64,000 nt of DNA from a virus. The stretch spans positions 1-64,000 of the IMG/VR virus record IMGVR_UViG_3300035564_000075; one strand, written 5' to 3'. A model generated the notes under the pieces. The model saw only the letters and a program-made list of their open reading frames with translations, had not been told where the DNA came from and did not search any database. Position numbers and translations under genes: made by a program. This document shows, piece by piece, positions 790-14,865 of the stretch. The number at the start of each line of letters is the position of its first letter. The first letter of the stretch is position 1.

Positions 790-794
790 CCTAT

Positions 795-865: not shown

Positions 866-866
866 C

Positions 867-900: not shown

Positions 901-967
901 TTCGACCTCCTTTCTAAAAGTGGATGGGGTGGTTACATTGCCCTCAGTGTTTGGCCCCATCCACCAT

Positions 968-1039: not shown

Positions 1040-1059
1040 CTAACCGTTGGTCTCCATCG

Positions 1060-1137: not shown

Positions 1138-1140
1138 TAT

Positions 1141-1213
1141 GCTTCTCTAGCTCAATGGATAGAGTAGCCGCCCTCTAAGCGGTTGGTTCAGGGTCCGAGT
1201 CCCTGGAGGAGCG
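1141..1213 (+). tRNA. tRNA-Arg(TCT)
   Basis: Acceptor GCTTCTC/GAGGAGC. Anticodon stem GCCGC/GCGGT closes CCTCTAA, giving TCT with C at position 33. T arm CAGGG-TCCGAGT-CCCTG has C at position 55. Confidence 0.9.
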
Positions 1214-1218
1214 CCTAT

Positions 1219-1286
1219 GGAAAGAGTCTGGGTAGCACCCTTGACCGTCTGGTATCAGATAGACTGAAGAGCACTTCTTCCTTTCC
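1219..1286 (+). ncRNA. tRNA-sized structured unit, unknown
   Basis: It follows the same CCTAT junction that separates the tRNAs. GGAAAG (1219-1224) pairs with CTTTCC (1281-1286), and small inner hairpins (GGG/CCC, GTCT/AGAC, GAAGA/TCTTC) give a cloverleaf-like outline without tRNA loop consensus. An alternative long stem GGTAGC (1231-1236)/GCTACC (1329-1334) competes. Confidence 0.35.
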
Positions 1287-1287
1287 T

Positions 1288-1324
1288 GCGTCACCTGCTA
1301 TAAGTGGTGAGACCTGGGCGACGC
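1288..1324 (+). other. hairpin unit
   Basis: GCGTC (1288-1292) pairs with GACGC (1320-1324), enclosing a CACC/GGTG hairpin. It may belong to the unit just upstream. Confidence 0.3.
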
Positions 1325-1337
1325 GTTCGCTACCAAT

Positions 1338-1410
1338 GCTTCTGTAGCTCAACGGTCAGAGCGCTTGTCCTACACACAAGATGTTGGTGGTTCGAATCCA
1401 CTCAGATGCA
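1338..1410 (+). tRNA. tRNA-Val(TAC)
   Basis: Acceptor GCTTCTG/CAGATGC has one T-T mismatch. Anticodon stem CTTGT/ACAAG closes CCTACAC, giving TAC with C at position 33. T loop TTCGAAT. CCA is encoded at 1411-1413. Confidence 0.9.
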
Positions 1411-1414
1411 CCAA

Positions 1415-1483
1415 GGAATAATCAGGCTTACTAAATATCATAATATGGCAACGTTCTGAATACGTTGCGCCCATGGTTATTCC
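1415..1483 (+). ncRNA. 69-base structured unit, unknown
   Basis: A seven-base-pair end stem GGAATAA (1415-1421)/TTATTCC (1477-1483) and an inner hairpin GCAACG (1448-1453)/CGTTGC (1463-1468) give tRNA-like size and closing stem. No T loop is present. Confidence 0.35.
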
Positions 1484-1487
1484 ACGC

Positions 1488-1559
1488 TGCGCGGTAGAGT
1501 ACTGGTAACTCAGAGGTCCCATAAACCTCGGTATGTGGGTTCGAATCCCACCCTCGCAA
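1488..1559 (+). tRNA. tRNA-Met(CAT)
   Basis: Acceptor TGCGCGG/CCTCGCA has one mismatch. Anticodon stem GAGGT/ACCTC closes CCCATAA, giving CAT with C at position 33. T loop TTCGAAT. Elongator Met, initiator and lysidine-modified Ile cannot be told apart here. Confidence 0.88.
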
Positions 1560-1564
1560 CCTTT

Positions 1565-1648
1565 GCCCTCCTGCTGGAATTGGTAGACAAGGACGCCCTA
1601 AAAGCGTTCGCCTTAATCGGCGTGAGGGTCCGAGTCCCTCGGTGGGCA
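1565..1648 (+). tRNA. tRNA-Leu(TAA)
   Basis: Class II tRNA with a long variable arm. Anticodon stem GACGC/GCGTT closes CCTAAAA, giving TAA with C at position 33. T arm GAGGG-TCCGAGT-CCCTC has C at position 55. Acceptor GCCCTCC/GGTGGGC has one mismatch. Confidence 0.9.
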
Positions 1649-1668
1649 CCTGGAGGCAAGAATGATAC

Positions 1669-1699
1669 TTGCAATCCTGTTCTGGACAATCTGTATACT
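1669..1699 (+). promoter_or_regulatory. possible promoter before the VWA gene
   Basis: TTGCAA and TATACT are spaced by 19 bases, ending about 18 bases before the VWA start codon. The long spacer lowers confidence. It would give the VWA gene its own transcript inside the tRNA array. Confidence 0.3.
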
Positions 1700-1716
1700 A
1701 TTTGATAGGAGATCAT

Positions 1717-2715
1717 ATGGGAACAAAAAAGATAGAACATCTCGTGAATCATATCGTATTGGTGCTTGATGGTAGTGGCAGTATGAGAGGACAGCCAGTT
1801 GAAGCGGTTGTCGATCGTGAAATAGATAACCTGAAACAACGTTCTGTGGATCTGAATCAGGAAACTCGCATCTCCATCTATCTCTTCAATACCAAGGTTG
1901 AGAATCTTGTCTTTGACATGGATGTAATGAGATTCAAGACTCTGCGTGGTCTTTATGATGCAGATGGGCAAACTGCCCTAATTGATGCAACCATGAAGGG
2001 TCTTGGAGACCACCAGCACATTCCGGAACTATACGATGACCATGCTTTTCTTGCTTATGTCATCACTGATGGTCAAGAGAATGCAAGTGTACACAGATCT
2101 GGTGAACTTGCAACCATGATCGAGAACCTTCCGGATAACTGGACTGTAGCATGTTTGGTTCCAGATGCAAATGGTGAATACGAAGCCAAGAAGTTTGGTT
2201 TTCCTGCTGGCTCAATCGCCAAATGGGATACTCATTCTGCAAAGGGCTTCGAGGAAGTTGGAAAGCAGTTCACTACTGTAACCAGCAACTACATGACCAT
2301 GCGTGCCTCTGGTGTGAGATCCACAAAGGGTCTATTCACTCTTGACTCTAAGGGATTGCACAAGTCTGACCTGAAACCAATCGATTTCAGTTACCAGATC
2401 TACAACATTCTGCATGATGGCAGAATTGACGAAGCTGTAGAGGATCTTACTGGTCGCAGATATGTTCCTGGCAGCACTTTCTATCAACCAATGAAAGCTG
2501 TGAAGATTCAGGACTACAAAGAGATCCTTGTGCAGAATGTGAAGAGTGGAATTGTTTATAGCGGAGAGAATATCCGTCAGTTGCTTGGATTGCCTTCCCA
2601 GACCGTGGAAGTGAATCCTGGACAGCATAAAGACTGGAAGATCTTCGTGCAAAGTACATCCTTGAACCGCAAACTGTTTGCGGGAACTCAGATCCTAGTG
2701 AGGATGGACTACTAA
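1717..2715 (+). CDS. von Willebrand factor A domain protein
   Basis: This 332-residue protein has a VWA fold with an apparent complete metal-ion-dependent adhesion site: DGSGSMRG near residue 20, a threonine in DGQTALIDAT, and VITDGQEN near 120. VWA domains bind protein partners through a divalent metal. The C-terminal half (from about residue 190) has no motif I recognise; its last part, with GENIRQLLGLPSQTVEVNPGQHKDWKIF split across the end, could bind a ligand or DNA, but that is unknown. The start at 1717 is chosen over an upstream ATG at 1669 because AGGAGA lies just before it. It sits alone among tRNA genes. VWA proteins often act with AAA+ or MoxR ATPases; none is adjacent. Possible roles are takeover of a host complex or tRNA-linked defence evasion, both inference. 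Confidence 0.8.
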   Translation: MGTKKIEHLVNHIVLVLDGSGSMRGQPVEAVVDREIDNLKQRSVDLNQETRISIYLFNTKVENLVFDMDVMRFKTLRGLYDADGQTALIDATMKGLGDHQHIPELYDDHAFLAYVITDGQENASVHRSGELATMIENLPDNWTVACLVPDANGEYEAKKFGFPAGSIAKWDTHSAKGFEEVGKQFTTVTSNYMTMRASGVRSTKGLFTLDSKGLHKSDLKPIDFSYQIYNILHDGRIDEAVEDLTGRRYVPGSTFYQPMKAVKIQDYKEILVQNVKSGIVYSGENIRQLLGLPSQTVEVNPGQHKDWKIFVQSTSLNRKLFAGTQILVRMDY

Positions 2716-2733
2716 TTTACGATAACGCGCCGC

Positions 2734-2780
2734 AGGTAAGCGGCTAGTGCCGACCGCATGAAATAGAAACGGACTTACCT
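2734..2780 (+). other. stem-loop unit between VWA gene and tRNA
   Basis: AGGTAAG (2734-2740) pairs with CTTACCT (2774-2780), enclosing CGGC-TAGT-GCCG. No T-run follows, so it is not a classical terminator. Confidence 0.35.
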
Positions 2781-2791
2781 CCGTAGGCCAT

Positions 2792-2873
2792 CGCAATGTG
2801 GTGGAACTGGTAGACACACCTGCCCTAGGAGCAGACGACTACGGTCGTGGAGGTTCGAGTCCTCTCATTGCGA
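2792..2873 (+). tRNA. tRNA-Leu(TAG)
   Basis: Acceptor CGCAATG/CATTGCG is perfect. Stem CTGC/GCAG closes CCTAGGA, giving TAG with C at position 33. Long variable arm. T arm GGAGG-TTCGAGT-CCTCT. Confidence 0.9.
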
Positions 2874-2951
2874 CAAACCCAATAAACGGGGACTGTTTGT
2901 AGGCTTCATAGTAACGGCCAGTGCACTGGTGTCGTAGCGTAGAAACCCTCA

Positions 2952-3025
2952 TCGCTCCGTAGCTCAATTGGCAGAGCAACAGACTTTTAATCTGGAGGTT
3001 GGGAGATCGTTGCTCCCCGAGGCGA
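2952..3025 (+). tRNA. tRNA-Lys(TTT)
   Basis: Stem CAGA/TCTG closes CTTTTAA, giving TTT with the normal T33. Acceptor CGCTCCG/CGAGGCG has one mismatch. The T loop ATCGTTG between GGGAG and CTCCC is abnormal (A at position 54). The 78 bases upstream (2874-2951) hold only small inverted repeats such as CCAGTGCACTGG. Confidence 0.85.
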
Positions 3026-3029
3026 CAAT

Positions 3030-3113
3030 GGAGTGCTGGCGTAACGGCTATCGCAGTGGTTCGCTAAACCACCCAACCGCAAGGTTGTCCGAGTCCGAAT
3101 CTCGGGCGCTCCG
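3030..3113 (+). tRNA. tRNA-Ser(GCT)
   Basis: Acceptor GGAGTGC/GCGCTCC. Anticodon stem GTGGT/ACCAC closes TCGCTAA, giving GCT with C at position 33. Long variable arm CAACCGCAAGGTTG. T loop TCCGAAT has C at position 55. Confidence 0.9.
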
Positions 3114-3118
3114 CCTAT

Positions 3119-3191
3119 GCTGGTGAAGCACATTCGGATGTGTGCCTTCTTGGTAAGAAGGTGGCAGTGAGTTCGAATCTCACCACTAGCT
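3119..3191 (+). tRNA. tRNA-Thr(GGT)
   Basis: Acceptor GCTGGTG/CACTAGC. Anticodon stem CCTTC/GAAGG closes TTGGTAA, giving GGT with normal T33. T loop TTCGAAT. Position 8 is A. Confidence 0.9.
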
Positions 3192-3251
3192 CTCTGACGG
3201 TGCAAGGTCCACCCCAAGCCCTTGCCGATCCCAAGGGGTCCGTCAGCCCAC

Positions 3252-3325
3252 GCCGACAAAGCTCATATTGGATGAGCAAGCGCCCTGTAAGCGCAAGGTA
3301 GAGAGTTCGAATCTCTCTGTTGGCT
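3252..3325 (+). tRNA. tRNA-Thr(TGT)
   Basis: Acceptor GCCGACA/TGTTGGC pairs fully. Stem GCGC/GCGC closes CCTGTAA, giving TGT with C at position 33. T arm GAGAG-TTCGAAT-CTCTC. Position 8 is A, as in the other two tRNA-Thr genes. Confidence 0.9.
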
Positions 3326-3329
3326 CTAT

Positions 3330-3413
3330 GGAAGCGTGGGGTAATGGCTATCCCTCCTGTCCTGAAAACAGACCAGCCGCAAGGCTGTGCGCGTTCGAGT
3401 CGCGCCGCTTCCG
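3330..3413 (+). tRNA. tRNA-Ser(TGA)
   Basis: Acceptor GGAAGCG/CGCTTCC is perfect. Stem CTGT/ACAG closes CCTGAAA, giving TGA with C at position 33. Variable arm CAGCCGCAAGGCTG. T arm GCGCG-TTCGAGT-CGCGC. Confidence 0.9.
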
Positions 3414-3416
3414 CCT

Positions 3417-3459
3417 TGGGCATATTTGCTCCTGATGCATGCTGTTGGAGATTTGCCCA
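3417..3459 (+). other. stem-loop unit
   Basis: TGGGCA (3417-3422) pairs with TGCCCA (3454-3459), with inner GCTCC/GGAG pairing. No T-run follows. Confidence 0.35.
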
Positions 3460-3555
3460 GAATAGGGTGGCACCTACCCCGTAGTCTCTTGGTGTAGTAG
3501 CAGCTAGCTCTGCTTACTGCCAGGGTAAGGCTTAGATGAAAGTGGCGTTCTACTC

Positions 3556-3573
3556 CCCGAGGAGAGGCTCGGG
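3556..3573 (+). other. hairpin before tRNA-Arg
   Basis: CCCGAG (3556-3561) and CTCGGG (3568-3573) form a stem with loop GAGAGG. The region 3463-3555 also folds locally (GGGT/ACCC, GTAGCAG/CTGCTTAC) but no gene is seen there. Confidence 0.35.
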
Positions 3574-3580
3574 CTAAACT

Positions 3581-3653
3581 GCCCCTGTAGCTCAATGGAT
3601 TAGAGCACTGGTCCACGGAACCAGTAATCCGAGTTCGAGTCTCGGTAGAGGCG
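3581..3653 (+). tRNA. tRNA-Arg(ACG)
   Basis: Anticodon stem CTGGT/ACCAG closes CCACGGA, giving ACG with C at position 33. Decoding of CGN would need A34-to-inosine. T arm CCGAG-TTCGAGT-CTCGG. Acceptor GCCCCTG/TAGAGGC has one mismatch. Confidence 0.88.
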
Positions 3654-3685
3654 CTAGCTCATGTACCATGTGTACAAGGAGTAAC

Positions 3686-3706
3686 GGAATTCCTACTAGG
3701 AATTCC
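3686..3706. repeat. long inverted repeat containing TCCTACTAGGA
   Basis: GGAATTCCTA, a central C, and TAGGAATTCC form a perfect 10+1+10 inverted repeat. It is the longest member of the TCCTANTAGGA palindrome family in this window and lies between tRNA genes. Confidence 0.7.
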
Positions 3707-3711
3707 AGCTT

Positions 3712-3794
3712 GCAGATGTGACGGAACCGGCATACGTGTCTGCCTCAAAACCAGATGTGCGATGCACACGGGAGTTCGAATCTCCCCATCTGCA
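3712..3794 (+). tRNA. tRNA-Leu(CAA)
   Basis: Acceptor GCAGATG/CATCTGC is perfect. Stem TCTG/CAGA plus a C-C mismatch closes CTCAAAA, giving CAA with T33. Long variable arm. T arm GGGAG-TTCGAAT-CTCCC. Confidence 0.88.
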
Positions 3795-3798
3795 CTAT

Positions 3799-3879
3799 GC
3801 GTGGGTTGGACAGGTGGTGAGTCCCCCTGACTGTAGATCAGGAGCCTCGGCTGTGGGAGTTCGATTCTCTCCTCACGCA
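3799..3879 (+). tRNA. tRNA-Tyr(GTA)
   Basis: Acceptor GCGTGGG/CTCACGC. Anticodon stem CCTGA/TCAGG closes CTGTAGA, giving GTA with normal T33. Long variable arm. T loop TTCGATT. Confidence 0.92.
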
Positions 3880-3883
3880 CAAT

Positions 3884-3966
3884 CGGCAATGGCAAAAGTG
3901 AGTTCCTAATTCTGGCGGTAAGGATAACGCTCTACGGTCCTGGGAAAACCTATCACTCCATTGCCG
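3884..3966 (+). ncRNA. 83-base structured unit, unknown
   Basis: CGGCAATGG (3884-3892) pairs with CCATTGCCG (3958-3966). After a CAAA bulge the stem continues AGTGA/TCACT. The interior (3902-3952) has no tRNA loops. The next tRNA follows after TAT, as at ordinary tRNA junctions. Confidence 0.4.
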
Positions 3967-3969
3967 TAT

Positions 3970-4042
3970 GCGCCTGTAGCTCAACGGACTGAGCAAGTGT
4001 TTCCTAAACACTAGGTTATGGGTTCAAATCCCATCAGACGCT
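3970..4042 (+). tRNA. tRNA-Arg(CCT)
   Basis: Anticodon stem AGTGT/ACACT closes TTCCTAA, giving CCT with T33. T arm ATGGG-TTCAAAT-CCCAT. Acceptor GCGCCTG/CAGACGC has one mismatch. Confidence 0.9.
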
Positions 4043-4080
4043 CTTGGCATGCTGGACCTGAAATCCAGCCTCTGCCAACT

Positions 4081-4157
4081 TCCTCCGGTATGTCTCAATG
4101 GTTAGAGCAACTGTCTTATGAGCAGCGAGTTGGAGGTTCGACTCCTCCACGGAGGAC
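4081..4157 (+). tRNA. tRNA-Ile(TAT), probable
   Basis: Acceptor TCCTCCG/CGGAGGA is perfect. Stem CTGT/GCAG (one wobble) closes CTTATGA, giving TAT with T33. T arm GGAGG-TTCGACT-CCTCC. The 3' acceptor strand also serves as the ribosome binding site of the next gene. Confidence 0.75.
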
Positions 4158-4158
4158 C

Positions 4159-4812
4159 ATGCTAAAGTATTTGATTTGTTCCGTACAGAGAAGCGGAAGC
4201 AACTTGCTGTGTGATTACTTGAAGAATACGAATGTCCTAGGAAATCCATTAGAGATGTTCAATCCACAAGGACCTAATGAGGGCTTCTACTTCACAGATG
4301 ATCATATAAGGCACATGATAGAAACAGATTCGCATGATGGTATTTTTGGTGCGAAAGTGATGTTCGATCAGGTAGTGTCTTATATAGGAACAAGAAGTTT
4401 CAATAGAATGTTTCATCATTCGAGGTTCGTCTTCATTCGAAGACAGGATAAGGTAGAACAAGCAATATCATTGTCCAGGGCAATGCAAACAGGAAGTTGG
4501 ATGGGCACACAAGAACCAACAATAGTTCCTGAATACAAATTCTGGCACATTCTCACCTGTCAGTATCTGATATATATGCAGGAAAGAGGATGGACACGTT
4601 TCTTTGAAGAGTATAAAGTTCCACATATAACAGTATGGTATGAGGACCTGCAACAAAACCCAGATGAGCAGTTGAATATAGTTACCTCATATATTCTATC
4701 AACAAAGACGAGTCTTAGCGCAGTAACAGATATGAAAATACAGCGCGATTCGCTAACAGAGATGTGGAAAGAACAGTTCAGCAAGGATCTAACAGAGAAG
4801 ATAAAAATATGA
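4159..4812 (+). CDS. Stf0-type sulfotransferase
   Basis: This 217-residue protein matches the Stf0 sulfotransferase family, known from mycobacterial trehalose 2-sulfotransferase, which transfers sulfate from PAPS to a sugar hydroxyl. The 5'-phosphosulfate loop is at the N-terminus (VQRSGSNLLCDYL, residues 9-21). The family blocks FGAKVMFDQ near residue 70 and RRQDKVEQAISLSRAMQTG near 95 are both present. It is about the expected length. The start is preceded by GGAGGACC, which is the 3' acceptor strand of the tRNA-Ile gene. Its stop overlaps the next start (ATGA). Its substrate in the host is unknown; cell-surface glycan or glycolipid is the natural guess. Together with the methyltransferase and glycosyltransferases nearby it suggests surface modification, for example superinfection exclusion, which is inference. 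Confidence 0.88.
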   Translation: MLKYLICSVQRSGSNLLCDYLKNTNVLGNPLEMFNPQGPNEGFYFTDDHIRHMIETDSHDGIFGAKVMFDQVVSYIGTRSFNRMFHHSRFVFIRRQDKVEQAISLSRAMQTGSWMGTQEPTIVPEYKFWHILTCQYLIYMQERGWTRFFEEYKVPHITVWYEDLQQNPDEQLNIVTSYILSTKTSLSAVTDMKIQRDSLTEMWKEQFSKDLTEKIKI

Positions 4813-5000
4813 TCATAAAACGTGTAAAAGCAATTTTAGCATATGTCTTTGGAAGGATTTTCATCTTCTTCTGGGTAATGTGCGCCAAGATGGATTTTTC
4901 GTCTGCTTTCAATACCTTGACTAGCATGGCAGACAATCTTAGAAGGATGGAACAACAACAAGACATACAAGAAAATTATAATAAGGTCATGCGGGAATAG
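4809..5000 (+). CDS. small single-pass membrane protein
   Basis: A 63-residue protein begins in an ATGA overlap with the sulfotransferase stop, so the two are probably co-translated. After a basic start (MIIKRVKA) comes one hydrophobic segment, ILAYVFGRIFIFFWVMCA, of membrane-spanning length. A polar, glutamine-rich tail follows. No family is recognised. The coupling suggests a membrane partner of the sulfotransferase, which is inference. The stop codon lies inside the next tRNA-Gly gene. Confidence 0.6.
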   Translation: MIIKRVKAILAYVFGRIFIFFWVMCAKMDFSSAFNTLTSMADNLRRMEQQQDIQENYNKVMRE

Positions 5001-5063
5001 CTCAATCGGTGGAGCGTCTTTCTGCCAAGAAGAAGGTTGCGAGTCCGAGTCTCGCTTTCCGCA
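4991..5063 (+). tRNA. tRNA-Gly(GCC)
   Basis: Acceptor GCGGGAA/TTTCCGC. Stem TCTTT/GAAGA closes CTGCCAA, giving GCC with T33. T arm GCGAG-TCCGAGT-CTCGC has C at position 55. The first ten bases overlap the preceding CDS. Confidence 0.9.
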
Positions 5064-5067
5064 CTAT

Positions 5068-5140
5068 GCTGGACTGGCGCAATGGTCAGCGCAATCGTCT
5101 GATAAGCGATAGGTTCTCCGTCCAAGTCGGAGGTTCAGCA
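5068..5140 (+). tRNA. tRNA-Ile(GAT)
   Basis: Acceptor GCTGGAC/GTTCAGC. Stem ATCGT/GCGAT closes CTGATAA, giving GAT with T33. T arm CTCCG-TCCAAGT-CGGAG has C at position 55. Confidence 0.9.
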
Positions 5141-5144
5141 CTAT

Positions 5145-5246
5145 GCTGGTAGTGGCTAATAAATGTGAGTGAGTCTTCAATGCAAGAAGATTCCGCCACG
5201 AGGGTGATCCTGCAGCGCACAGGCCCAACATTCCGCCCTCACCAGC
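5145..5246 (+). ncRNA. three-way-junction RNA unit, unknown
   Basis: GCTGGT (5145-5150) pairs with ACCAGC (5241-5246). Two adjacent stems fill the inside: GTGGC (5152-5156)/GCCAC (5195-5199) and GAGGG (5200-5204)/CCCTC (5236-5240). It follows a CTAT junction like a tRNA would. It has no tRNA loop consensus and no ORF with a ribosome binding site. Confidence 0.45.
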
Positions 5247-5250
5247 ACAT

Positions 5251-5322
5251 GCAACCGTAGTCCAGCGGTTAAGACGGTGGCCCCTCAAGCCTCCGACCCG
5301 AGTTCGATCCTCGGCGGTTGCA
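5251..5322 (+). tRNA. tRNA-Glu(CTC)
   Basis: Acceptor GCAACCG/CGGTTGC is perfect. Stem GTGGC/GCCTC (one mismatch) closes CCCTCAA, giving CTC with C at position 33. T arm CCGAG-TTCGATC-CTCGG. Confidence 0.88.
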
Positions 5323-5337
5323 CCTAGGAGAGCAAAC

Positions 5338-5487
5338 ATGTTCAGATGTAGATCCTGTTCTGCTGATTGTTTTGGTATGTCGCACGATCATGGCAAGTTT
5401 GGTTGTATCTATTGCCATTGTAGAAAGACAGAAGAACAGGTCGAACTGGAAGGAGAGCCTCCAAGTTCGTATGCCCTTGTCGTCTAG
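5338..5487 (+). CDS. small cysteine-rich zinc-ribbon-like protein
   Basis: A 49-residue ORF starts at an ATG with AGGAGA seven bases upstream. It begins MFRCRSCSADCFGM and continues GCIYCHCRK, giving two paired cysteine clusters (C-x2-C-x3-C and C-x2-C-x-C) that could bind zinc. Histidines lie between them. The C-terminus is acidic and proline-containing. Its last 15 bases lie inside the next tRNA-Glu gene, the same arrangement as two other short genes in the array. No family is recognised. The good ribosome binding site and clustered cysteines make it a likely real gene despite its size. Confidence 0.6.
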   Translation: MFRCRSCSADCFGMSHDHGKFGCIYCHCRKTEEQVELEGEPPSSYALVV

Positions 5488-5544
5488 CGGCCAGGACGTA
5501 AGCCTTTCAAGCTTGCAAGCAGAGTTCGAGTCTCTGCAAGGGCA
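5473..5544 (+). tRNA. tRNA-Glu(TTC)
   Basis: Acceptor GCCCTTG/CAAGGGC is perfect. Stem TAAGC/GCTTG closes CTTTCAA, giving TTC with T33. T arm GCAGAG-TTCGAGT-CTCTGC. Confidence 0.92.
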
Positions 5545-5548
5545 CTAT

Positions 5549-5620
5549 TCACGAGTACCATAATGGAAGTGGGCACGACTGTTAATCGTGTACGTGGTGG
5601 TCCGACTCCACCCTCGTGAG
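5549..5620 (+). tRNA. tRNA-Asn(GTT)
   Basis: Acceptor TCACGAG/CTCGTGA is perfect. Stem CACGA/TCGTG closes CTGTTAA, giving GTT with T33. T arm GGTGG-TCCGACT-CCACC has C at position 55. Confidence 0.92.
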
Positions 5621-5624
5621 CTAT

Positions 5625-5697
5625 GGGATCATGGTCTAACGGCCCATGACGCTTCCCTGTCAAGGAAGTAGTGAGAGTTCGACCCTCTCTGGTCCCG
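5625..5697 (+). tRNA. tRNA-Asp(GTC)
   Basis: Acceptor GGGATCA/TGGTCCC. Stem CTTCC/GGAAG closes CTGTCAA, giving GTC with T33. T arm GAGAG-TTCGACC-CTCTC. Confidence 0.92.
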
Positions 5698-5719
5698 CCT
5701 TGTGGTATAATGTACGTAT

Positions 5720-5791
5720 AGGTTGTTCGTCCAACGGCCAGGATAAGCGTCCCCAAAACGTTTGATGGGAGTTCGAATCTCTCACGACCTG
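5720..5791 (+). tRNA. tRNA-Trp(CCA)
   Basis: Acceptor AGGTTGT/ACGACCT. Stem AGCGT/ACGTT closes CCCCAAA, giving CCA with C at position 33. T arm GGGAG-TTCGAAT-CTCTC. A TATAAT at 5706-5711 lies just upstream but lacks a -35 box. Confidence 0.9.
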
Positions 5792-5801
5792 CCTTTCTTA
5801 T

Positions 5802-5875
5802 CTGGGATTAGCTCAGTCCGGTAGAGCACTGCGCCTGGGACGCAGGGGCCACAGGTCCAAATCCTGTATCTCAGA
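5802..5875 (+). tRNA. tRNA-Pro(TGG)
   Basis: Acceptor CTGGGAT/ATCTCAG. Stem CTGCG/CGCAG closes CCTGGGA, giving TGG with C at position 33. T arm ACAGG-TCCAAAT-CCTGT has C at position 55. Confidence 0.92.
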
Positions 5876-5879
5876 CTAT

Positions 5880-5951
5880 TGCCCCCTCATCTAACGGTAA
5901 GGATGGCTGGCCTTGAACCAGAGCATCGAGGTTCGAATCCTTGGGAGGCAG
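5880..5951 (+). tRNA. tRNA-Gln(TTG)
   Basis: Acceptor TGCCCCC/GGAGGCA has one mismatch. Stem CTGG/CCAG closes CCTTGAA, giving TTG with C at position 33. T loop TTCGAAT. Confidence 0.9.
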
Positions 5952-6004
5952 CTAGCTTGTCCTGCAGGCAAGCATGGACTAGACATCAACAGTGTCTAGT
6001 TTAT

Positions 6005-6076
6005 TGTCCCCTCGTCTAACGGTTAGGACCCCTGCCCCTGGAGCAGGGTATCGTAGTTCGAATCTACGGGAGACAG
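6005..6076 (+). tRNA. tRNA-Gln(CTG)
   Basis: Acceptor TGTCCCC/GGAGACA has one mismatch. Stem CCTGC/GCAGG closes CCCTGGA, giving CTG with C at position 33. T arm CGTAG-TTCGAAT-CTACG. Close paralogue of the tRNA-Gln(TTG) gene upstream. Confidence 0.92.
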
Positions 6077-6081
6077 CCTTT

Positions 6082-6154
6082 GCCGCTTTAGCTCAGTTGG
6101 TAGAGCGCATGCCCGAAGAGCATGGCGTCGGCAGTCCGATTCTGTCAGGCGGCA
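6082..6154 (+). tRNA. tRNA-Phe(GAA)
   Basis: Acceptor GCCGCTT/AGGCGGC. Stem CATGC/GCATG is perfect and closes CCGAAGA, giving GAA with C at position 33. T arm GGCAG-TCCGATT-CTGTC has C at position 55. Last tRNA of the array. Confidence 0.92.
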
Positions 6155-6174
6155 CACGAATAATAGAGGAAAAT

Positions 6175-7089: not shown

Positions 7090-7749
7090 ATGCCAGAAAA
7101 AGATGCGGTACTGATACAGCAAAGTTGGCATGGCAGGAACGATGTCAGATGGCCTGGATTGAACAATCTAGGCATGATTGCATTGACGGAAGATAGGAAT
7201 AGGAAGTACTGCCAACTCCACGACATGGATTACTGGTGTGTAAAGGAAACCATCACGGATCTCCCTATGGATGAAAAGACTTGGGAGAGGGTAGAACTGA
7301 TAAAGAAAGCACTTGCTCAAGGATACCAGAAAGTCATCTGGTTGGATGTAGATACTGTCATAAAGAAACCTGAATACGATCTTCGTGATGCATGCATACG
7401 AATTGGCATGTGCTATGATACTGAGTTTGAACTGAAGCACTACAATTGTGGTGCGATGTACTTTGACAATATACCATCCACACGCAAGTTTGTGGATGAA
7501 TGGAACTATGTTCCTGGTGCCTTTTGGGGAGGACACTATTGGCATGAACAGTCTATTCTGAATAAGAATATGCCGCAATATCCAGACACTTTCTACAGAC
7601 TTCCCAATAAGTGGAATGCCTATATTGGCACTCCATGCGCAGAAGATGATATAATAGTGAAAGCATGGCATGGTTATTTCCCAGGCAATGACAAAATTAC
7701 AGCAATGAAAGCCTGTCTTGCAGGACTTTCTGATATAGAGGGAGCATGA
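7090..7749 (+). CDS. GT-A-fold glycosyltransferase
   Basis: A 219-residue protein of the nucleotide-diphospho-sugar transferase fold. The metal-binding DxD motif is in VIWLDVDTV (D86-V-D88). Downstream come NCGAMYFDN, HEQSILN and a late WHGY, a pattern like small galactosyl or mannosyl transferases (GT34-like). It should move a sugar from a nucleotide sugar to an acceptor in the cytoplasm; donor and acceptor cannot be read. It sits between a methyltransferase and a HAD-like gene, with the next start overlapping its stop by four bases, so the three are probably made together as a glycan-modifying set. Confidence 0.78.
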   Translation: MPEKDAVLIQQSWHGRNDVRWPGLNNLGMIALTEDRNRKYCQLHDMDYWCVKETITDLPMDEKTWERVELIKKALAQGYQKVIWLDVDTVIKKPEYDLRDACIRIGMCYDTEFELKHYNCGAMYFDNIPSTRKFVDEWNYVPGAFWGGHYWHEQSILNKNMPQYPDTFYRLPNKWNAYIGTPCAEDDIIVKAWHGYFPGNDKITAMKACLAGLSDIEGA

Positions 7750-9131
7750 ACTCGTGGGATCTATTCGACACGCTTATTGGAAGATGGTATGGGGACCCAA
7801 TCAGTATATTTTTTGAGGTAGAAAGGCGCGCAGACTTCCCTGGATTCGTCAAAATCAGGCGGGATTCTGAATTGGAGCTCTATCCACTTGGCAAAAATGT
7901 CACTTTGGATGACATCTACCTAAATTTTCAGAAGAAAACGGGCGTTACTGACGAAAAAATGAAGGAATTGATGGCTCTTGAGCTTGAAATGGAGCTTTTG
8001 ATGTCATTTCCTATCACCAAGAACTCAAAAAGAGTGCAAAAAGGCGATATTGTTGTCTCCGACATGTATTTGCCAAAGGATTTCATGGAGACACTGCTGG
8101 AAAAGAATGGAATTGGACCAGTAAGTGATATTTATGTAGCCTCTGGTGGTAAGGGAAGTGGAAATATATGGCCGACTGTCCATCAGAAGTTCCGCCCCGA
8201 GATCCATACTGGTGATAATAAGTGGTCCGACTGCGATATGCCACGCAGACGTGGAATTCGCACCGCCTGCTATGAGGATGTCAAGAGTGAAGGCGAAACT
8301 TTGCTGGAAAAGGATGGATTCCAGAGAATAGCAAACCTATCAAGGGTATTACGTTTGTCTTGCCCATATACTAATTCATCTGAAAGACTGGTATGGGATG
8401 AACAAGCTACAATAAACATTCCGATCCTGATCCTGGTATCTCTTTACATACCACTTATCTATAGCGGCAAGCGCGTGCTGATGTCCACCAGAGATTGTAA
8501 CAATCTCCTGAACATCTTTCCGCTTATAGTTCCAAATATGAAGGCAGAAGAGTTCTTCACTTCTAGGAAGTGCTACTGGTCAGGTAGTCAAGAATACATG
8601 TCGTATGCACGTTACAAACTTGGCATTGATGATCCATTGATAGTTGATTTCCATGGAAGCGGCAACAGTCTTGATCACTTCTTCGGACAATTCAGCAAGT
8701 ATCCTAAGTGCTTTACGATCGTACAGACTAGACCGAGAGGAGTTCCTCCAATGCTGTGGAGAAAGTACATAGTCGATCGCACATTTGAAGACATGTTCGC
8801 ATTGCGAGATGGGATCATGTGGGAGATAGAGAATGCAAATCTGGACGAGGTTGGTAGTGTCATGGATGTTCGCAATGGCGTGCCTATTAGGGCACCACTA
8901 CGTTACAAAACAGATATGGTCAAGGTACAACATGCTGCAGTTGCTGCTGCAGTCGATCTACTGAAGAAAGGATTCGATATTCATCCTGTGGTAGAGTCAA
9001 AGGCTGGCATAGAGAGCACTGTAACATCTTTGCTGAAGATCCTGGGACATAACGGCGCTGCGATTCTCAAGACTGGTGTGCCTGATATAAATGACTGGCC
9101 TGGGTCTGTACTTTTGAAAGATATAAAGTGA
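7746..9131 (+). CDS. HAD-like protein of the FDIFDTL type
   Basis: This 461-residue protein opens with WDLFDTLIGR (residues 4-13), the nucleophile motif of the large HAD-like proteins often found in polysaccharide and glycosyltransferase clusters. The second motif VVSDMYLPKDF near 107 and GDNKWSDCDMPRRRGI near 160 are also typical, with the aspartates kept. The second half (from about residue 210) contains RVLMSTRDCNNLL and is not assigned; it may bind or transfer a sugar or lipid phosphate. It overlaps the glycosyltransferase gene by four bases. The likely role is phosphate transfer or hydrolysis during glycan building. Precise reaction unknown. Confidence 0.65.
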   Translation: MNSWDLFDTLIGRWYGDPISIFFEVERRADFPGFVKIRRDSELELYPLGKNVTLDDIYLNFQKKTGVTDEKMKELMALELEMELLMSFPITKNSKRVQKGDIVVSDMYLPKDFMETLLEKNGIGPVSDIYVASGGKGSGNIWPTVHQKFRPEIHTGDNKWSDCDMPRRRGIRTACYEDVKSEGETLLEKDGFQRIANLSRVLRLSCPYTNSSERLVWDEQATINIPILILVSLYIPLIYSGKRVLMSTRDCNNLLNIFPLIVPNMKAEEFFTSRKCYWSGSQEYMSYARYKLGIDDPLIVDFHGSGNSLDHFFGQFSKYPKCFTIVQTRPRGVPPMLWRKYIVDRTFEDMFALRDGIMWEIENANLDEVGSVMDVRNGVPIRAPLRYKTDMVKVQHAAVAAAVDLLKKGFDIHPVVESKAGIESTVTSLLKILGHNGAAILKTGVPDINDWPGSVLLKDIK

Positions 9132-9156
9132 TATAATCAAGCATTGGAGAGCAGAT

Positions 9157-9360
9157 ATGGACATAAAGGATATTAGAGAAAAGAAAATTGAACTTGAGCG
9201 CAATCTTGAGATAGAGATAACCAAACTCTTGTCTCAATTCACCAAGGAAACCGAGATAAGCATCTCCGGTATTCGTGCGTCAATGAATACCATGAGAACT
9301 TATGGAAATAAGGATGTTGATTACATTGTCGAAGTATTTACCGACGTTAATTGGTCATAG
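9157..9360 (+). CDS. small helical protein, unknown
   Basis: A 67-residue protein with GGAGAGC before its ATG. The first half is charged and helix-forming (IREKKIELERNLEIEITKLL), the second half ends in acidic and aromatic residues. No motif is recognised. It lies just before the bacterioferritin gene, eight bases apart, and may share its transcript. A TATAAT at 9134-9139 is a possible -10 box but lacks a -35. Confidence 0.55.
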   Translation: MDIKDIREKKIELERNLEIEITKLLSQFTKETEISISGIRASMNTMRTYGNKDVDYIVEVFTDVNWS

Positions 9361-9368
9361 GAGCTATT

Positions 9369-9833
9369 ATGAATGGGAATCCTGAAGTAATCGATCGTTT
9401 GAACTTTCTTCTCAAGTCTGAACTGGCTGCAATCAATCAATATGTGGTGCATGCGCAGATGGATGAGATCTACGGCTATGATAAACTGTCAGAGTACGTG
9501 ATGAAGCGTGCCAAAGACGAAATGAAGCACGCAGAAATGCTTATTGAGCGTATGCTCTTCCTTAGAGGTATGCCAATTGTGAGCATCCTAGATCCTATCT
9601 TTGTTGGACAGGATGTTGAGACACAATTGAATAATGATCACTCTTCCGAAGAGACTGCCATCAAGAACTACAATGAAGCTATCCGTCTATGCACAAATCT
9701 TGAGGATGTGGGCACTGAAGAAATTCTAGAAGACATCCTGGAAGATGAAGAGCGCCATATTCGTGAGATTGAAGAGAAGCAGTATCATATAGCGCAGATG
9801 GGCATTGCGAACTTCCTGTCTCTACAGGCATAG
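9369..9833 (+). CDS. bfr: bacterioferritin
   Basis: The 154-residue protein has the length of a bacterioferritin subunit (about 158). With the start at 9369 (GGAG upstream) every diiron ferroxidase ligand falls at the Escherichia coli Bfr number: E18, E51, H54, E94, E127 and H130. M52, the axial heme ligand between subunits, is also present (KDEMKHAEM). Bacterioferritins form 24-subunit shells that oxidise Fe(II) and store Fe(III). In a phage it could protect DNA from Fenton chemistry or control the iron supply of the infected cell. A short cysteine-rich gene follows one base after the stop. The gene appears intact and functional. Confidence 0.93.
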   Translation: MNGNPEVIDRLNFLLKSELAAINQYVVHAQMDEIYGYDKLSEYVMKRAKDEMKHAEMLIERMLFLRGMPIVSILDPIFVGQDVETQLNNDHSSEETAIKNYNEAIRLCTNLEDVGTEEILEDILEDEERHIREIEEKQYHIAQMGIANFLSLQA

Positions 9834-9834
9834 T

Positions 9835-10053
9835 ATGAAAACCAAAGATTTCTATGCTACTAGCATGTCTGCTTCCACAAGAACCTTTAGTGACTACAAA
9901 GGCGTAGACGAAAGTAAGACATTATGCACATACTGTCTACTAAGACAGCAATGTGAGATATTCAATGCGAATAGAGCACTGCAAAATGAGTTCAATATCA
10001 GAACCCAGATTGTAGAGTGCCCACGCATGATAGAGGACCCAAATTATGAATAG
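9835..10053 (+). CDS. small four-cysteine protein next to bacterioferritin
   Basis: A 72-residue protein starts two bases after the bacterioferritin stop and overlaps the next gene by eight bases. It contains LCTYCLLRQQCEIF and a later VECPRM, that is C-x2-C-x5-C plus one more cysteine, able to bind zinc or an iron-sulfur cluster. The position recalls Bfd, the ferredoxin that helps release iron from bacterioferritin, but the Bfd fold and cysteine spacing are not matched. It could be an unrelated redox or zinc protein. Confidence 0.6.
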   Translation: MKTKDFYATSMSASTRTFSDYKGVDESKTLCTYCLLRQQCEIFNANRALQNEFNIRTQIVECPRMIEDPNYE

Positions 10054-10996
10054 AATCATTCTTTTGAAAGACGAGTTTCCGGAAGCAGACAAGATAACTA
10101 GTCTACCAGACAATGTTACAGTGTTTGATATGTTTGCGGTAGAGCCACCTGATGCACCAGAGATAACTTCTGTACTTGCCATCCACAATGCCTATCCGGA
10201 AAGAGAATTGGCTGCAATTGTTGGTGTAAAGCCGCGTGATCCAGTTGCTTACATATCACGCATGGTAAATACCTCACTATTCTCTCAGATCATAGTGAGA
10301 GTGACTGACTTCCCGAGAACATCTGCTGCAACCATTCAGGATTTCCGTGGAATGGGCTTCAAGAGTGTGAAGATCGGGATTATGGCACCCATTGACAAGC
10401 TGATCGATGAGGATTCTGCTGCAAGGCGAATCTTTGCCGCCATGGGACTGTCCAATGCGTTTCTTGTCCCAAGTTTCCGTTATATCCCAACCAAAGAGGA
10501 TCATTCACGAATTCTGACTGCACTTCTGCAACTTCGTGAGTCCATGCGTGGAGTTTCCATCGTTCCAAGCATTTCTTTGGTTCCTGGAGACAGTGAACCC
10601 GCAGAAAGCGTTCAGGACTTCTATAAGAAGACACTTTTGCCAATTACGGATGGATTGCTGATCCTTTCTTACAAAACCATCCAAAACAACCAAATCTATA
10701 ATGCACTTATCGGTATGGAGGATGAAATGCCAAAAAAGACCAAAACTGCTGTTGTAACTCCCGTTGATGAGCCTATTGTTGCTCAGGGAACCGTAAATGT
10801 CGATACTTTGTCTAAAAGAAGCAGGCCATCACTTCAGGCGACTGTTCTTGCAGAAAAAGGTCGTCTTCACATGGGCGACACCGTAAAATTCGTTCAAATT
10901 GTCCGTCCATTGCCAGATCTTATTTTCGGTCGCTCTCCGGATGGATTCTGGGCTGTAATCAAGAGTGGTAGTGCAGATTATATCAAGCTAGACTAA
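10046..10996 (+). CDS. unknown protein with C-terminal SH3-like domain
   Basis: A 316-residue protein. Residues 1-225 contain alternating strands and helices (for example LFSQIIVRVTDFP, FKSVKIGIMAP, GVSIVPSISLVPGD) that could form a barrel or Rossmann-type fold; no catalytic motif is recognised. A lysine/proline linker leads to a C-terminal segment (from about 245, GTVNVDTLSKRSRPSLQATV ... FWAVIKSGSADYIKLD) that looks like a bacterial SH3 domain. Such domains often bind cell wall or proteins. It lies just upstream of the packaging genes. Function unknown. Confidence 0.6.
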   Translation: MNRIILLKDEFPEADKITSLPDNVTVFDMFAVEPPDAPEITSVLAIHNAYPERELAAIVGVKPRDPVAYISRMVNTSLFSQIIVRVTDFPRTSAATIQDFRGMGFKSVKIGIMAPIDKLIDEDSAARRIFAAMGLSNAFLVPSFRYIPTKEDHSRILTALLQLRESMRGVSIVPSISLVPGDSEPAESVQDFYKKTLLPITDGLLILSYKTIQNNQIYNALIGMEDEMPKKTKTAVVTPVDEPIVAQGTVNVDTLSKRSRPSLQATVLAEKGRLHMGDTVKFVQIVRPLPDLIFGRSPDGFWAVIKSGSADYIKLD

Positions 10997-11018
10997 AACT
11001 GAAACCAAGAGGTATAAA

Positions 11019-11309
11019 ATGACCAGAACTCTACTATCTAAGAACAAAGACATAACACCAGAGGACAGCCGTGAAGTTGATAATGATGGAATGGTCAAAC
11101 TAATGCGTGCACGTGGCTTTGTGCAGGCTGCTATCGAAGCAGACAACATGCGCTTGATCTACATCTTCCCAAGAAAGGAAACTCAGCCATTGCTGGATGA
11201 GATACTTGCAAATAAGCCAATTATGATCGAATGGCAGAAGTATCGTGATGCAGAGGAAGAGTGGAAGACAACCCTATCCATTCTGAAGGAAATGCGTGGC
11301 AGGAAGTAA
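11019..11309 (+). CDS. small protein before terminase, possible small-subunit candidate
   Basis: A 96-residue charged, helical protein with GAGGTATAAA before the ATG. No helix-turn-helix motif is clear. Its place directly before the large terminase, with the terminase start inside its end, makes it a candidate for the small terminase subunit or another packaging helper. There is no sequence evidence beyond position. Confidence 0.5.
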   Translation: MTRTLLSKNKDITPEDSREVDNDGMVKLMRARGFVQAAIEADNMRLIYIFPRKETQPLLDEILANKPIMIEWQKYRDAEEEWKTTLSILKEMRGRK

Positions 11310-12996
11310 GATCTATGTGATGACGCCTGCCGAAATAGAGATATTGAAAGCAGGTGCATCCGATCCAACCATCATACTTGATTACTTCTCTCGTCGGCCA
11401 GGGCAAGACCATGGCTGGCGCTTTGACTACAACTTTACCGAAGAAGGTAAGTGGCAGAAGGAGATGTGTCAAGCATCCCAGACCTTCATCGTCTGTATTG
11501 CCGGTATTGCTACTGGCAAAACGGTCGGTGTTGGTATGGCCGCTGTTACCCATGCCATTCTCACTCCAGATTTCAAGTTCCTGAATGTGGCACGTGAAGC
11601 ATGGCAGTCACAACTGATGTACAACGCCATCCTGGAACATGCCGCAGGCACATTGCTTGAGAAACTGATCGTTGCCTCTCCTAGAAGGCCCTATCCCATG
11701 ATTGTCATTGAGTATATTGTCAATGGCATTCATATCAGATCTACTTTGGAGTTCATGTCCATAGGAGAGAAAGAAGATGCTGCAAATATATTTTCATGGC
11801 GTGGTGACTGGATCAATATTGATGAAGCTGGCCGACTTGACGACCTTGGTACGATTGTTGCGAACCTTTCAACACGTGGAACTGGTGCTACACCAGGGGG
11901 AAGGTCATATCTGGGTAGGATCTCGCTTACCACGAACCCATGGGACAATCCAGACCTATGGATTCTCTTCGACATGGCAGCGGCTGATCCGGAAAATTCG
12001 CTTGCGCTTAACATTGATACGTCTTCTAATAAGAATACTACTCAGAAACAGATCGACCAAATCATAAAGATCAACCGCATGGTGCTTGGCTCTGGAGATG
12101 TCAACAGATTCCTAACAGGAAAGCGTCCAGAGGGCAAAGGTACTTACTTCCCGAAGAATGTAGTGGATTCTTGTACATCCAGAATACTATCTACTCCAAT
12201 TGCCAATGGCATGAATGAAGGGACCCCTGAATATGAACTTCAGATCATGGGACAGTTGGGTGCATACTACTTCAAGACCCCAAGACAGAATGATAGGTTG
12301 TATTTCCTATTAGGAGATCCTGGTACTGGTGCTCCTCCAGCGCGTAATGCATTTGTAGTACAAGTCTGGGATGTAACTGATTCTGGTGAAGGCAAACCTG
12401 CATTGCTGGTGGCACAGCACTGGGGCAATGGTGGTGGACAGATAGAACCATTTGTAGAGCAGGTGATTGATTGGATAAAGTATTACAAGCCCATCTTCGC
12501 TGGTGTAGATTCTACTGGTCCACAGAAGAACACTGCTGAAATTGTTTCTCTGGATAGGATCTATGGCAAGGGTTATTCGGTAAGTGCGCTAACCCCCATG
12601 GACTTCTCCGGAGGCAAGCGTATTTCTTATTTGGGTTCTTTGCGTATAATACTAGAAGCAGGGCTAATGCTATGGCCTAGTATATGCACAGGAATCGGGA
12701 GTCAATTAAAAAACTATGATCCAGTCGTGGATAGGAATCCAAACTCAAAACTTCCGCAGGATCTTGTCGCAACTATGGCAATGGCTGCGCGTGCGATTCA
12801 TGGTCACTACGGCATCCTTGGTAAGGAAGGAAGCGATAATGACGCAGGACAAGGCACTGAGATTGTCAACCCTCGCAGATTTGATCGAAGCGAAGGTACA
12901 ACTTGGTCCGGTCGTTCCCAGAGAGACAATGCGGGACGCTCGGAGTATGACCCGAGAGCGGCGTCTGAGGAGATAGAAAGACGCATCAGATCCTAA
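11296..12996 (+). CDS. terL: terminase large subunit
   Basis: The DNA-packaging motor ATPase and nuclease. GIATGKT (residues 70-76) is the Walker A motif, WINIDEAG (about 172-179) the Walker B with catalytic glutamate, and ISLTTNPW the coupling motif. The C-terminal nuclease domain shows LLGDPGTG near 340 and FAGVDSTG near 408, supplying acidic residues. At 566 residues it has the usual length. The start is uncertain: GTG at 11296, GTG at 11317 and ATG at 11320 are all possible, the latter two using GGAAG of the overlapping gene. The stop lies in a TCCTAATAGGA palindrome, and a terminator hairpin follows. Confidence 0.93.
   Translation: MAGSKIYVMTPAEIEILKAGASDPTIILDYFSRRPGQDHGWRFDYNFTEEGKWQKEMCQASQTFIVCIAGIATGKTVGVGMAAVTHAILTPDFKFLNVAREAWQSQLMYNAILEHAAGTLLEKLIVASPRRPYPMIVIEYIVNGIHIRSTLEFMSIGEKEDAANIFSWRGDWINIDEAGRLDDLGTIVANLSTRGTGATPGGRSYLGRISLTTNPWDNPDLWILFDMAAADPENSLALNIDTSSNKNTTQKQIDQIIKINRMVLGSGDVNRFLTGKRPEGKGTYFPKNVVDSCTSRILSTPIANGMNEGTPEYELQIMGQLGAYYFKTPRQNDRLYFLLGDPGTGAPPARNAFVVQVWDVTDSGEGKPALLVAQHWGNGGGQIEPFVEQVIDWIKYYKPIFAGVDSTGPQKNTAEIVSLDRIYGKGYSVSALTPMDFSGGKRISYLGSLRIILEAGLMLWPSICTGIGSQLKNYDPVVDRNPNSKLPQDLVATMAMAARAIHGHYGILGKEGSDNDAGQGTEIVNPRRFDRSEGTTWSGRSQRDNAGRSEYDPRAASEEIERRIRS
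12305..12315. repeat. TCCTANTAGGA palindrome (T centre)
   Basis: TCCTATTAGGA lies inside the terminase coding sequence, so it is not simply a stop codon plus ribosome binding site. Confidence 0.8.
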
Positions 12997-13055: not shown

Positions 13056-13092
13056 AATAGACTATATGGAGACTTCCGTATAGTCTATTTTT
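13056..13092 (+). terminator. intrinsic terminator between terminase and portal
   Basis: AATAGACTATA (13056-13066) pairs with TATAGTCTATT (13079-13089), extended by GGA/TCC around a GACT loop, and is followed by a T-run. It should end, or partly attenuate, the terminase transcript before the head genes. Confidence 0.8.
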
Positions 13093-13110: not shown

Positions 13111-14865
13111 ATGTTCAATTCGCTTGGAAACACCGTTGATAGTTCTCTAAAAGTAGTTGTTGACATCATTTCTCCGTTTTCGCTGTCCAACCTGCCGAAC
13201 TTTCCCTATATTAGGTACATGGCGCAGTTGGATGCCTATCGAGAACTGGAGTCATGGTATCTTGGCACAATTCTGAATGTTGAAGTCCTGGACAAGGCTT
13301 CTGGCAAGAAGTTCGATCGTTATCCCCTAAAGATAAATCCTATTAGAAATACGTGTGAACTTCATGCAACCACGCTGATGGGTAAGCCAGCTAGTAGTAT
13401 TCAAGATGGTGGCGCACCGATCAGTTTTGTGTGCCAGCCCAACACTCCAGATGAACAGAAGGCCAGGATAGAGGCAGCACTCAAGCAAGTATGGATTGAT
13501 AACCAAGGTTCCGCCCTATTCGCATCCAACGCACTCATATCACAGTATCTTGGCGGTTGTGTATTTGAGGCAATGTGGTTGCCAGAGGATCAGAGAATCA
13601 GGATCACCAATCCCAACCCTAAGGAGTTCATTGGAATTCCCGATGGTGCTGATTACTGGCATTTGCGTGAGGCATGGGTAGTAAAGGAACTGAACCGTAT
13701 TGACCTTATTCAGTATGGTTTCGATCCAGACTTGAAGGACAACAGATGGCATTATATTGAGCACTGGACCCCTGAAGATTATGGCGCATCCATAAATGCA
13801 AAGCCACTTCAGGTAGGTGGTGAGCTAACTCAGGGAGACAATCCTTTCAAGCTGGTACCGTTTGTTTATATTCCACATATCAGAAACTGGTCATTTTATG
13901 GCGATGCCGTAATTACAGATTCTGTGCGTGGCTTGATCCGTGAGCTCAACTTGCGTTGGGCAGACATTGGTGATGCTGTATCTGAAGATGCACATGGTTA
14001 TATCTTCATTCGTAACGTGCGTCAGCAGATCAAACTGGAGAACGTTGGTGATGGTAGACCGCTGTACAACCTGGGAAGCACTACTGGCATTGGTAGCAAT
14101 GAAGCGAATCCAGAGATGATAGCGGTAAAGCCAACCTTTGCATCTGATGTGATGATCAAACTTGGCGATAAGCTGTATGAACTGTATCGCCACGAAGTAC
14201 ATCACCCTGCAGTTGCAGATGGTCAAGATGAAGGATCTCAGCGCTCTGCACAGACTATCTCCACTAGGATGAGTCCTTTGACTGACCACATTGAGATGGA
14301 GCGTATGTTCTGGACAGCAGGACTACAGCGCTTCTCACACATCTTGCTTGTTATGATGGAAGAGAAGGGACTGTATGGAATCAAGAAAGGCGATTCTAAC
14401 ATTACAGTCAGCCTACAGTGGCAACCAATGCTTGGCAAGGATCGTACACAGCTTGTAGCTGAAGTTGTACAGCGTGCCGGTGTCAATCTCGGTTCTATGG
14501 AACTTCTACTCAAGATTCTTGGTGATGTTGAGAATCCTGAAGAGGAAGTTGAGAAGATCATGGAAGAGATGCAGAGGATGAATGCCATCAACATGCCTTT
14601 CCAGCAACCTGGAGAGGGTGACGACAATGGCGACAATTCGGATGACAAAAGTGGCAAAGGTGGTAAACCATCCAAGGCCATTCAGCCAAAGACGCCACGC
14701 AACTTCAAGAAGTTAGCTCCCAAAGCAAAGCCAGGAGAGCAAACAACCGGATCAGGAGAACCAGACCAGATGAAACCAGCCCATGTGCAAGACACAACGG
14801 GCATGGGGGGCGGTGGATATGGCCTAGTTGGTACTGATATGGGTCCTGGGCAAACAGGAGTATAA
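13111..14865 (+). CDS. portal protein
   Basis: A 584-residue protein placed between the large terminase and the scaffold/capsid genes. Length, position and composition match SPP1 gp6-like portal proteins, which form the dodecameric ring for DNA entry and tail attachment. Features include an N-terminal helical region, a mixed core with NLRWADIGDAVSEDAHG, and a disordered, lysine-, glycine- and proline-rich C-terminus from about residue 500. The start at 13111 has AGGGAATT upstream. Assignment rests mostly on order and overall character. Confidence 0.85.
   Translation: MFNSLGNTVDSSLKVVVDIISPFSLSNLPNFPYIRYMAQLDAYRELESWYLGTILNVEVLDKASGKKFDRYPLKINPIRNTCELHATTLMGKPASSIQDGGAPISFVCQPNTPDEQKARIEAALKQVWIDNQGSALFASNALISQYLGGCVFEAMWLPEDQRIRITNPNPKEFIGIPDGADYWHLREAWVVKELNRIDLIQYGFDPDLKDNRWHYIEHWTPEDYGASINAKPLQVGGELTQGDNPFKLVPFVYIPHIRNWSFYGDAVITDSVRGLIRELNLRWADIGDAVSEDAHGYIFIRNVRQQIKLENVGDGRPLYNLGSTTGIGSNEANPEMIAVKPTFASDVMIKLGDKLYELYRHEVHHPAVADGQDEGSQRSAQTISTRMSPLTDHIEMERMFWTAGLQRFSHILLVMMEEKGLYGIKKGDSNITVSLQWQPMLGKDRTQLVAEVVQRAGVNLGSMELLLKILGDVENPEEEVEKIMEEMQRMNAINMPFQQPGEGDDNGDNSDDKSGKGGKPSKAIQPKTPRNFKKLAPKAKPGEQTTGSGEPDQMKPAHVQDTTGMGGGGYGLVGTDMGPGQTGV

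Follow-up and report, generated by a model that had tools for sequence, protein, structure and literature searches.

A phage-encoded bacterioferritin within a tailed-phage genome

A bacterioferritin (Bfr) gene in the genome of a tailed phage raises two questions: whether the gene is intact, and what a phage would gain from it. The gene studied here, bfr, lies in bases 1-64000 (hereafter the window, 64,000 bases in all) of an 84,630-base (84.6 kb) virus record. Phage iron handling has been discussed mainly for tail proteins (the Ferrojan Horse idea) and for Dps. The source record is an uncultivated tailed phage, viral and not host DNA, because it encodes a terminase, an SPP1-type portal, 29 tRNAs and a major capsid protein (MCP) with relatives among the MCPs of further viral contigs. 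Moreover, bfr sits within the virus genome and not in host DNA at a contig edge, with terminase, portal and MCP genes downstream on the same strand, each with viral relatives; the terminase large subunit is 81% identical to that of contig L083 and 34-46% identical to those of six further viral contigs. The MCP and tail genes come after the portal, on the strand of bfr, and the opposite-strand half of the genome carries DnaB-like, SSB, nucleotidase and radical SAM genes. The block around bfr is listed in Table 1. Elsewhere in the window, the 29 tRNA genes fall in the first 6.2 kb (86-6155) and cover nearly all isoacceptor types, and the tail region encodes a 2879-aa protein without cysteine (20374-29013), whose C-terminal part matches the L085 phage at 27%.

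Table 1. Features of the bfr-terminase block and the start of the head module (window coordinates)
Feature	Position	Strand	Basis or remark
Small gene, 67 aa, just 5' of bfr; PHROG of unknown function	9157..9360	+	phrog_1707, E 6e-7
bfr, bacterioferritin, 154 aa	9369..9833	+	TIGR00754, PF00210, ligands, AlphaFold2 model
Four-cysteine ORFan, 72 aa, C31-x2-C34-x5-C40-x21-C62	9835..10053	+	ORF; translation likely, not certain
316-aa gene, overlaps the four-cysteine ORF by 8 bases	10046..10996	+	without Pfam or PHROGs match
96-aa gene just 5' of terminase and overlapping it; by position alone, fits a candidate small terminase	11019..11309	+	without Pfam or PHROGs match
Terminase large subunit	11296..12996	+	phrog_2, E 1.3e-7; 1.46 kb downstream of bfr
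Hairpin terminator directly 3' of terminase	13056..13089	+	fold -20.1 kcal/mol, z -5.56
Portal protein, start of head module	13111..14865	+	PF05133, E 9.2e-11

The bacterioferritin gene is intact and its product probably active

The original prediction, made from the sequence, described a complete phage-encoded bacterioferritin with all six ferroxidase ligands and the heme-binding M52 at their E. coli numbers, and both statements proved correct. The ORF runs from an ATG at 9369 to a stop at 9833, with an AGGAG ribosome-binding site five bases before the ATG. Its full-length product passes the cut-off of the NCBI curated family TIGR00754 (130.1 bits against 125.55; 129.5 in a repeat, again above) and matches the Pfam Ferritin profile PF00210 with an E of 2e-25. 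Compared with E. coli Bfr (40% identity), the protein keeps E18, E51, H54, E94, E127 and H130, as well as the heme ligand M52 and Y25. D50 is also kept, and four E. coli residues are substituted (H46K, W35Y, Y58L and W133E); since H46, Y58 and W133 are among them, mineralisation kinetics may differ. An AlphaFold2 model built from 22 window and locus sequences (pLDDT 97.4) shows five helices, forming a four-helix bundle and a short fifth helix, and superposes on the solved P. aeruginosa and E. coli structures with a TM of 0.97 and an rmsd of 0.8. The protein resembles known bacterioferritins (E. coli Bfr 1bcf, P. aeruginosa BfrB) in length, fold, ferroxidase ligands and heme Met52, and differs from them in being phage-encoded, in the replacement of H46, Y58, W35 and W133, and in that its record holds no Bfd gene.

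Conservation points the same way. Across all phage homologues in the comparison, including those only about 30% identical, the six ligands and M52 are unchanged, which argues that this is not a decaying gene. Between the window and L002 proteins dN is 0.365 against a dS of 2.9, the latter near saturation, indicating purifying selection. We conclude that the protein is probably active. At the Bfd docking positions, L68 and E81 in P. aeruginosa BfrB (PMC12261321), the phage protein has M68 and Q81. We had considered this an argument against a partner and dropped it, because Q81 occurs in other Bfrs: F68/Q81 and L68/Q81 are found in Bfrs modelled with Bfd (PMC13136788).

The closest relatives are other phage bacterioferritins

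The most similar Bfrs are viral, from L002 (a 250-kb contig, 57-58% identity) and L085 (a 65-kb contig, 55%), and the closest bacterial ones are 54% identical. In a maximum-likelihood tree of 89 Bfrs, whose long branches call for caution, the window protein groups with L085 and L002 (support 95/93), with the window and L085 proteins together at 99/80. When L085 was left out, the window protein still joined L002 (97/91); leaving out L002 or L086 gave clade supports of 92/83 and 93/95, both below the starred level. By sequence, then, the window Bfr groups with two other phage Bfrs, one of them from a related phage: the L085 phage is a distant relative, whose terminase, portal, MCP and other proteins match ours in the same order at 22-30%, and its SSB at 62%. 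A DUF1599-like gene of the window (42269-42598) has a 69% identical homologue that adjoins the L085 bfr and overlaps its stop; unlike in the L085 phage, this gene and bfr lie 32 kb apart in the window.

These relationships bear on the idea that bfr is a passenger, that is, a recently captured host gene without a role for the phage. Bacterial bfr genes are common, and the related contigs L091 and L093, in which 6-8 kb upstream of the terminase are present, have no bfr there, so the gene is not universal in this phage group. Yet the nearest relatives are phage and not host Bfrs, the related L085 phage keeps the gene too, and the preservation of all ligands at only 57% identity to the nearest known Bfr suggests that the gene has been retained for long. 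A mere passenger is therefore highly improbable in our judgement.

A viral bfr under purifying selection has already been published (PMC10904782). That Bathyarchaeia virus bfr shares with ours that it is virus-encoded and apparently functional, and it is described as Thermoproteota-derived; the comparison made here is with that published description. The window gene, unlike the Bathyarchaeia virus one, belongs to a tailed phage, has other phage relatives and adjoins a terminase. Within the collections searched, two things appear to be new, namely a clade of phage Bfrs and the location of bfr in a terminase block.

bfr is probably expressed late, together with the terminase

Counting upstream from the terminase large subunit along the same strand, bfr is the fourth gene; it is followed by the four-cysteine ORF, the 316-aa gene, the 96-aa gene, the terminase large subunit and the portal. 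Behind the terminase stands a terminator with a 15-pair hairpin and a T run, and none of 200 shuffled sequences was as stable; the message that carries bfr probably ends here. No plus-strand terminator-like site was predicted between 7724 and 13056, a stretch that holds the same-strand block 7746-12996. A scan for sigma-70-like sites predicted none on the plus strand between 7746 and 9369; phage-specific promoters, which may differ, fall outside that scan. Because no internal terminator was predicted and a strong one follows the terminase, bfr most likely shares a message with the terminase, and judging from gene order it is probably made late. This casts doubt on the timing implied by the suggestion that iron handling is a host-takeover trait, since a gene in the terminase block is probably expressed late.

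The reading we favour, and hold to be reasonably probable, is that a working heme Bfr cage is made late together with the terminase and limits damage from free Fe2+ and peroxide. Ordinary Bfr chemistry is supported because the gene, the metal and heme ligands and the fold are all intact. The subunits would assemble into a 24-subunit heme-bearing cage; Fe2+ would be bound at the dinuclear ferroxidase centre, oxidised by O2 or H2O2 and kept in the interior as ferric mineral. Transcribed with the terminase, the product would appear late, and the lowered free Fe2+ and peroxide would mean less Fenton damage to DNA under replication and packaging; holding iron would be a secondary role of the cage. 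There are parallels in other ferritin-superfamily diiron proteins carried by phages, the Dps and Mn-catalase proteins, which are proposed to limit iron and oxidative damage (PMC8008677, PMC7881722, PMC4281155); in gut phages (Gratiaviridae and others) they are proposed to act as anti-oxidants that protect anaerobic hosts (PMC8008677). Dps differs in being a separate family that forms 12-mers and has no heme, whereas the window protein is a heme-type Bfr.

Another possibility is that Bfr collects iron for phage metalloenzymes, and the original prediction had named a radical SAM enzyme and diiron proteins as recipients. The first part stood, as the record does carry a radical SAM gene (44522-45322; PF04055, E 5e-9). 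The second did not: no diiron protein besides Bfr was identified in the record, nor was a class I ribonucleotide reductase small subunit or a Bfd found there. Nothing ties it to bfr either: the radical SAM gene lies 35 kb away on the minus strand, in the presumably early half, whereas the bfr block is probably late. We regard iron supply as very unlikely to be the main use of the gene. The radical SAM protein carries a CxxxCxxC motif.

Ferritin-family genes lie among packaging and capsid genes in several other phages

A wider scan revealed further ferritin-family genes in viral contigs, several of them close to packaging or head genes. In L098, bfr is directly 3' of the terminase large subunit, and in L110 it lies 2.1 kb upstream of the major head protein. 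Short ferritin-like genes stand between the major-head and neck/tail-sheath genes of L112 (1659-2147) and between the portal and head-morphogenesis genes of L114 (9992-10450); another lies inside the head/tail module of L113 (855-1341). The three short proteins are about 30% identical to Bfr, and those of L112 and L114 keep the ferroxidase ligands and Met52. The pattern was not seen in L002, L099 and L106/L109, where no structural gene is shown beside bfr.

To put a figure on this, the gap between bfr and the terminase was compared with random placement in the five lineages in which a terminase was located, and was smaller (Fisher p 0.0016; 0.0027 without the related record G002), in a small, post hoc, 11-record test on few and partial records. 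Taken together, the gene orders suggest that phage ferritin-family genes are mostly placed near packaging and capsid genes, and this hints at a use late in infection. Also, three BFVD proteins of uncultured Caudovirales annotated as 'prohead protease' (A0A6J7WPK9, A0A6J7XDU5 and A0A6J7WIS1) resemble the Bfr fold along a stretch of about 140 residues; they may be head-maturation proteins fused to a ferritin-like domain.

The same pattern could mean that Bfr, or the cage once loaded with iron, is made with the terminase and associates with the virion or the packaging apparatus. Carried on or in particles, it would protect packaged DNA or bring iron or ferroxidase activity into the next cell infected. 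This reading is a serious competitor, since Dps of phages has turned up in purified particles, namely in Privateer virions (PMC7881722) and in SU10 proteomics (PMC4281155). The head- and packaging-module genes of L098, L110, L112 and L114, the terminase proximity (p 0.002-0.003 over four to five records) and the fold matches of the 'prohead protease' proteins are all consistent with it. Set against this, the precedents are Dps and not Bfr, the gene-order test followed the sighting of the pattern and covers few independent records, the three loci without a structural gene shown beside bfr do not fit, and a 24-mer would be a large cargo. Weighing these points, we think a virion role unlikely for the window protein. 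A Bfr 24-mer is about 12 nm across. The broader proposition, that several tailed-phage lineages independently placed Bfr-type cages in the terminase/head block for a role inside or together with the particle, packaged or attached so as to shield DNA from Fenton damage or to carry iron into the next cell, seems to us quite unlikely.

There is nothing unusual about the protein itself, and viral bfr had been described before; what deserves pursuit is the pattern of locations. An intact bfr in a terminase block, with phage relatives, offers a concrete and inexpensive test of late control of free iron, our preferred reading, against ferritin cages in particles.

The four-cysteine neighbour is a separate ORFan

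The ORF that follows bfr runs from an ATG at 9835, a single base after the bfr stop codon, to a stop at 10053. The motif originally noticed in it, C-x2-C-x5-C plus one more cysteine, is real: C31, C34, C40 and C62 are its only cysteines (C-x2-C-x5-C-x21-C). At the cysteine frequency of this phage (0.535%), at least four cysteines in 72 aa have a p of about 7e-4, an enrichment that makes metal binding plausible if the ORF is translated; the protein possibly binds zinc or an Fe-S cluster. Its codon statistics are poor: the synonymous-codon score ranks at the 4.5th percentile of in-frame segments, a value also reached by 16% of the out-of-frame ones. Tight packing, with the one-base gap before it and the 8-base overlap after it, favours a real gene, and translation is likely but not certain.

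Relatives were sought in several collections: tblastn gave none in phages or plasmids, back-translated patterns gave none in IMG/VR, and among 89 loci, in which the bacterial DNA covered consisted of Bfr flanks, only the ORF itself was recovered. Within a set of 14 viral records that included the window's own and L083, it was absent from the 12 others that carry bfr or a related terminase. The remark that the neighbour does not match Bfd was upheld, as the Bfd family (PF04324) has no match in the whole record at E 0.1 and the x2, x5, x21 spacing differs from the C-x-C ... C-x2-C of Bfd. A single-sequence AlphaFold2 model was uninformative (pLDDT 52). The nearest likeness is to WhiB-type [4Fe-4S] proteins, which share C-x2-C-x5-C and a similar local sequence, at a score below the family cut-off (PF02467, 13.2 bits against 23.6). 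WhiB, however, has its extra cysteine N-terminally, whereas here no cysteine precedes C31 and the fourth is C-terminal; the ORF also encodes no tryptophan and so, unlike WhiB, no GVWGG-type motif.

Could bfr and this ORF form a storage and release pair, with the small protein as a [4Fe-4S] or [2Fe-2S] donor to the Bfr heme? The genes are adjacent and likely co-translated, and both the cysteine enrichment and the motif shared with WhiB-type proteins at sub-threshold scores would suit a cluster. But the spacing fits zinc equally, the ORF stands beside no other phage bfr in the records compared, it is not Bfd, no relatives turned up in which to test cysteine conservation, and the structural model does not help. 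Such a pairing has, in our estimate, only a slim chance. The earlier suggestion of a redox or iron-release partner thus stayed unsupported, with nothing behind it beyond adjacency, and the neighbour is a separate, unexplained ORFan.

Probable host loci behind some other apparent viral bfr genes

Several further candidates for phage bfr genes were rejected. The Salmonella and Acinetobacter bfr records in the cultured-phage collection are large host-like contigs. Pseudomonas phage Y5 (OQ572407.1) is an unverified record that has no DNA relatives among phages and chromosome-like genes around bfr, and in MT835709.1 a Bfd-like gene adjoins bfr amid bacterial-type neighbours. In the phage collection, the bfr regions of CAKLQH020000007.1 and AFYI01000003.1 look like bacterial chromosome as well. 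Because the cultured-phage matches examined look like bacterial DNA filed as phage, bfr is so far known from uncultivated phages alone. Two contigs filed as viral, L087 (2267-3134) and L088 (335-1202), were set aside too, since they hold a host bfd-bfr pair beside an integrase; a prophage has apparently inserted next to the host bfd-bfr locus, and contigs of this kind give rise to false 'viral bfr' assignments.
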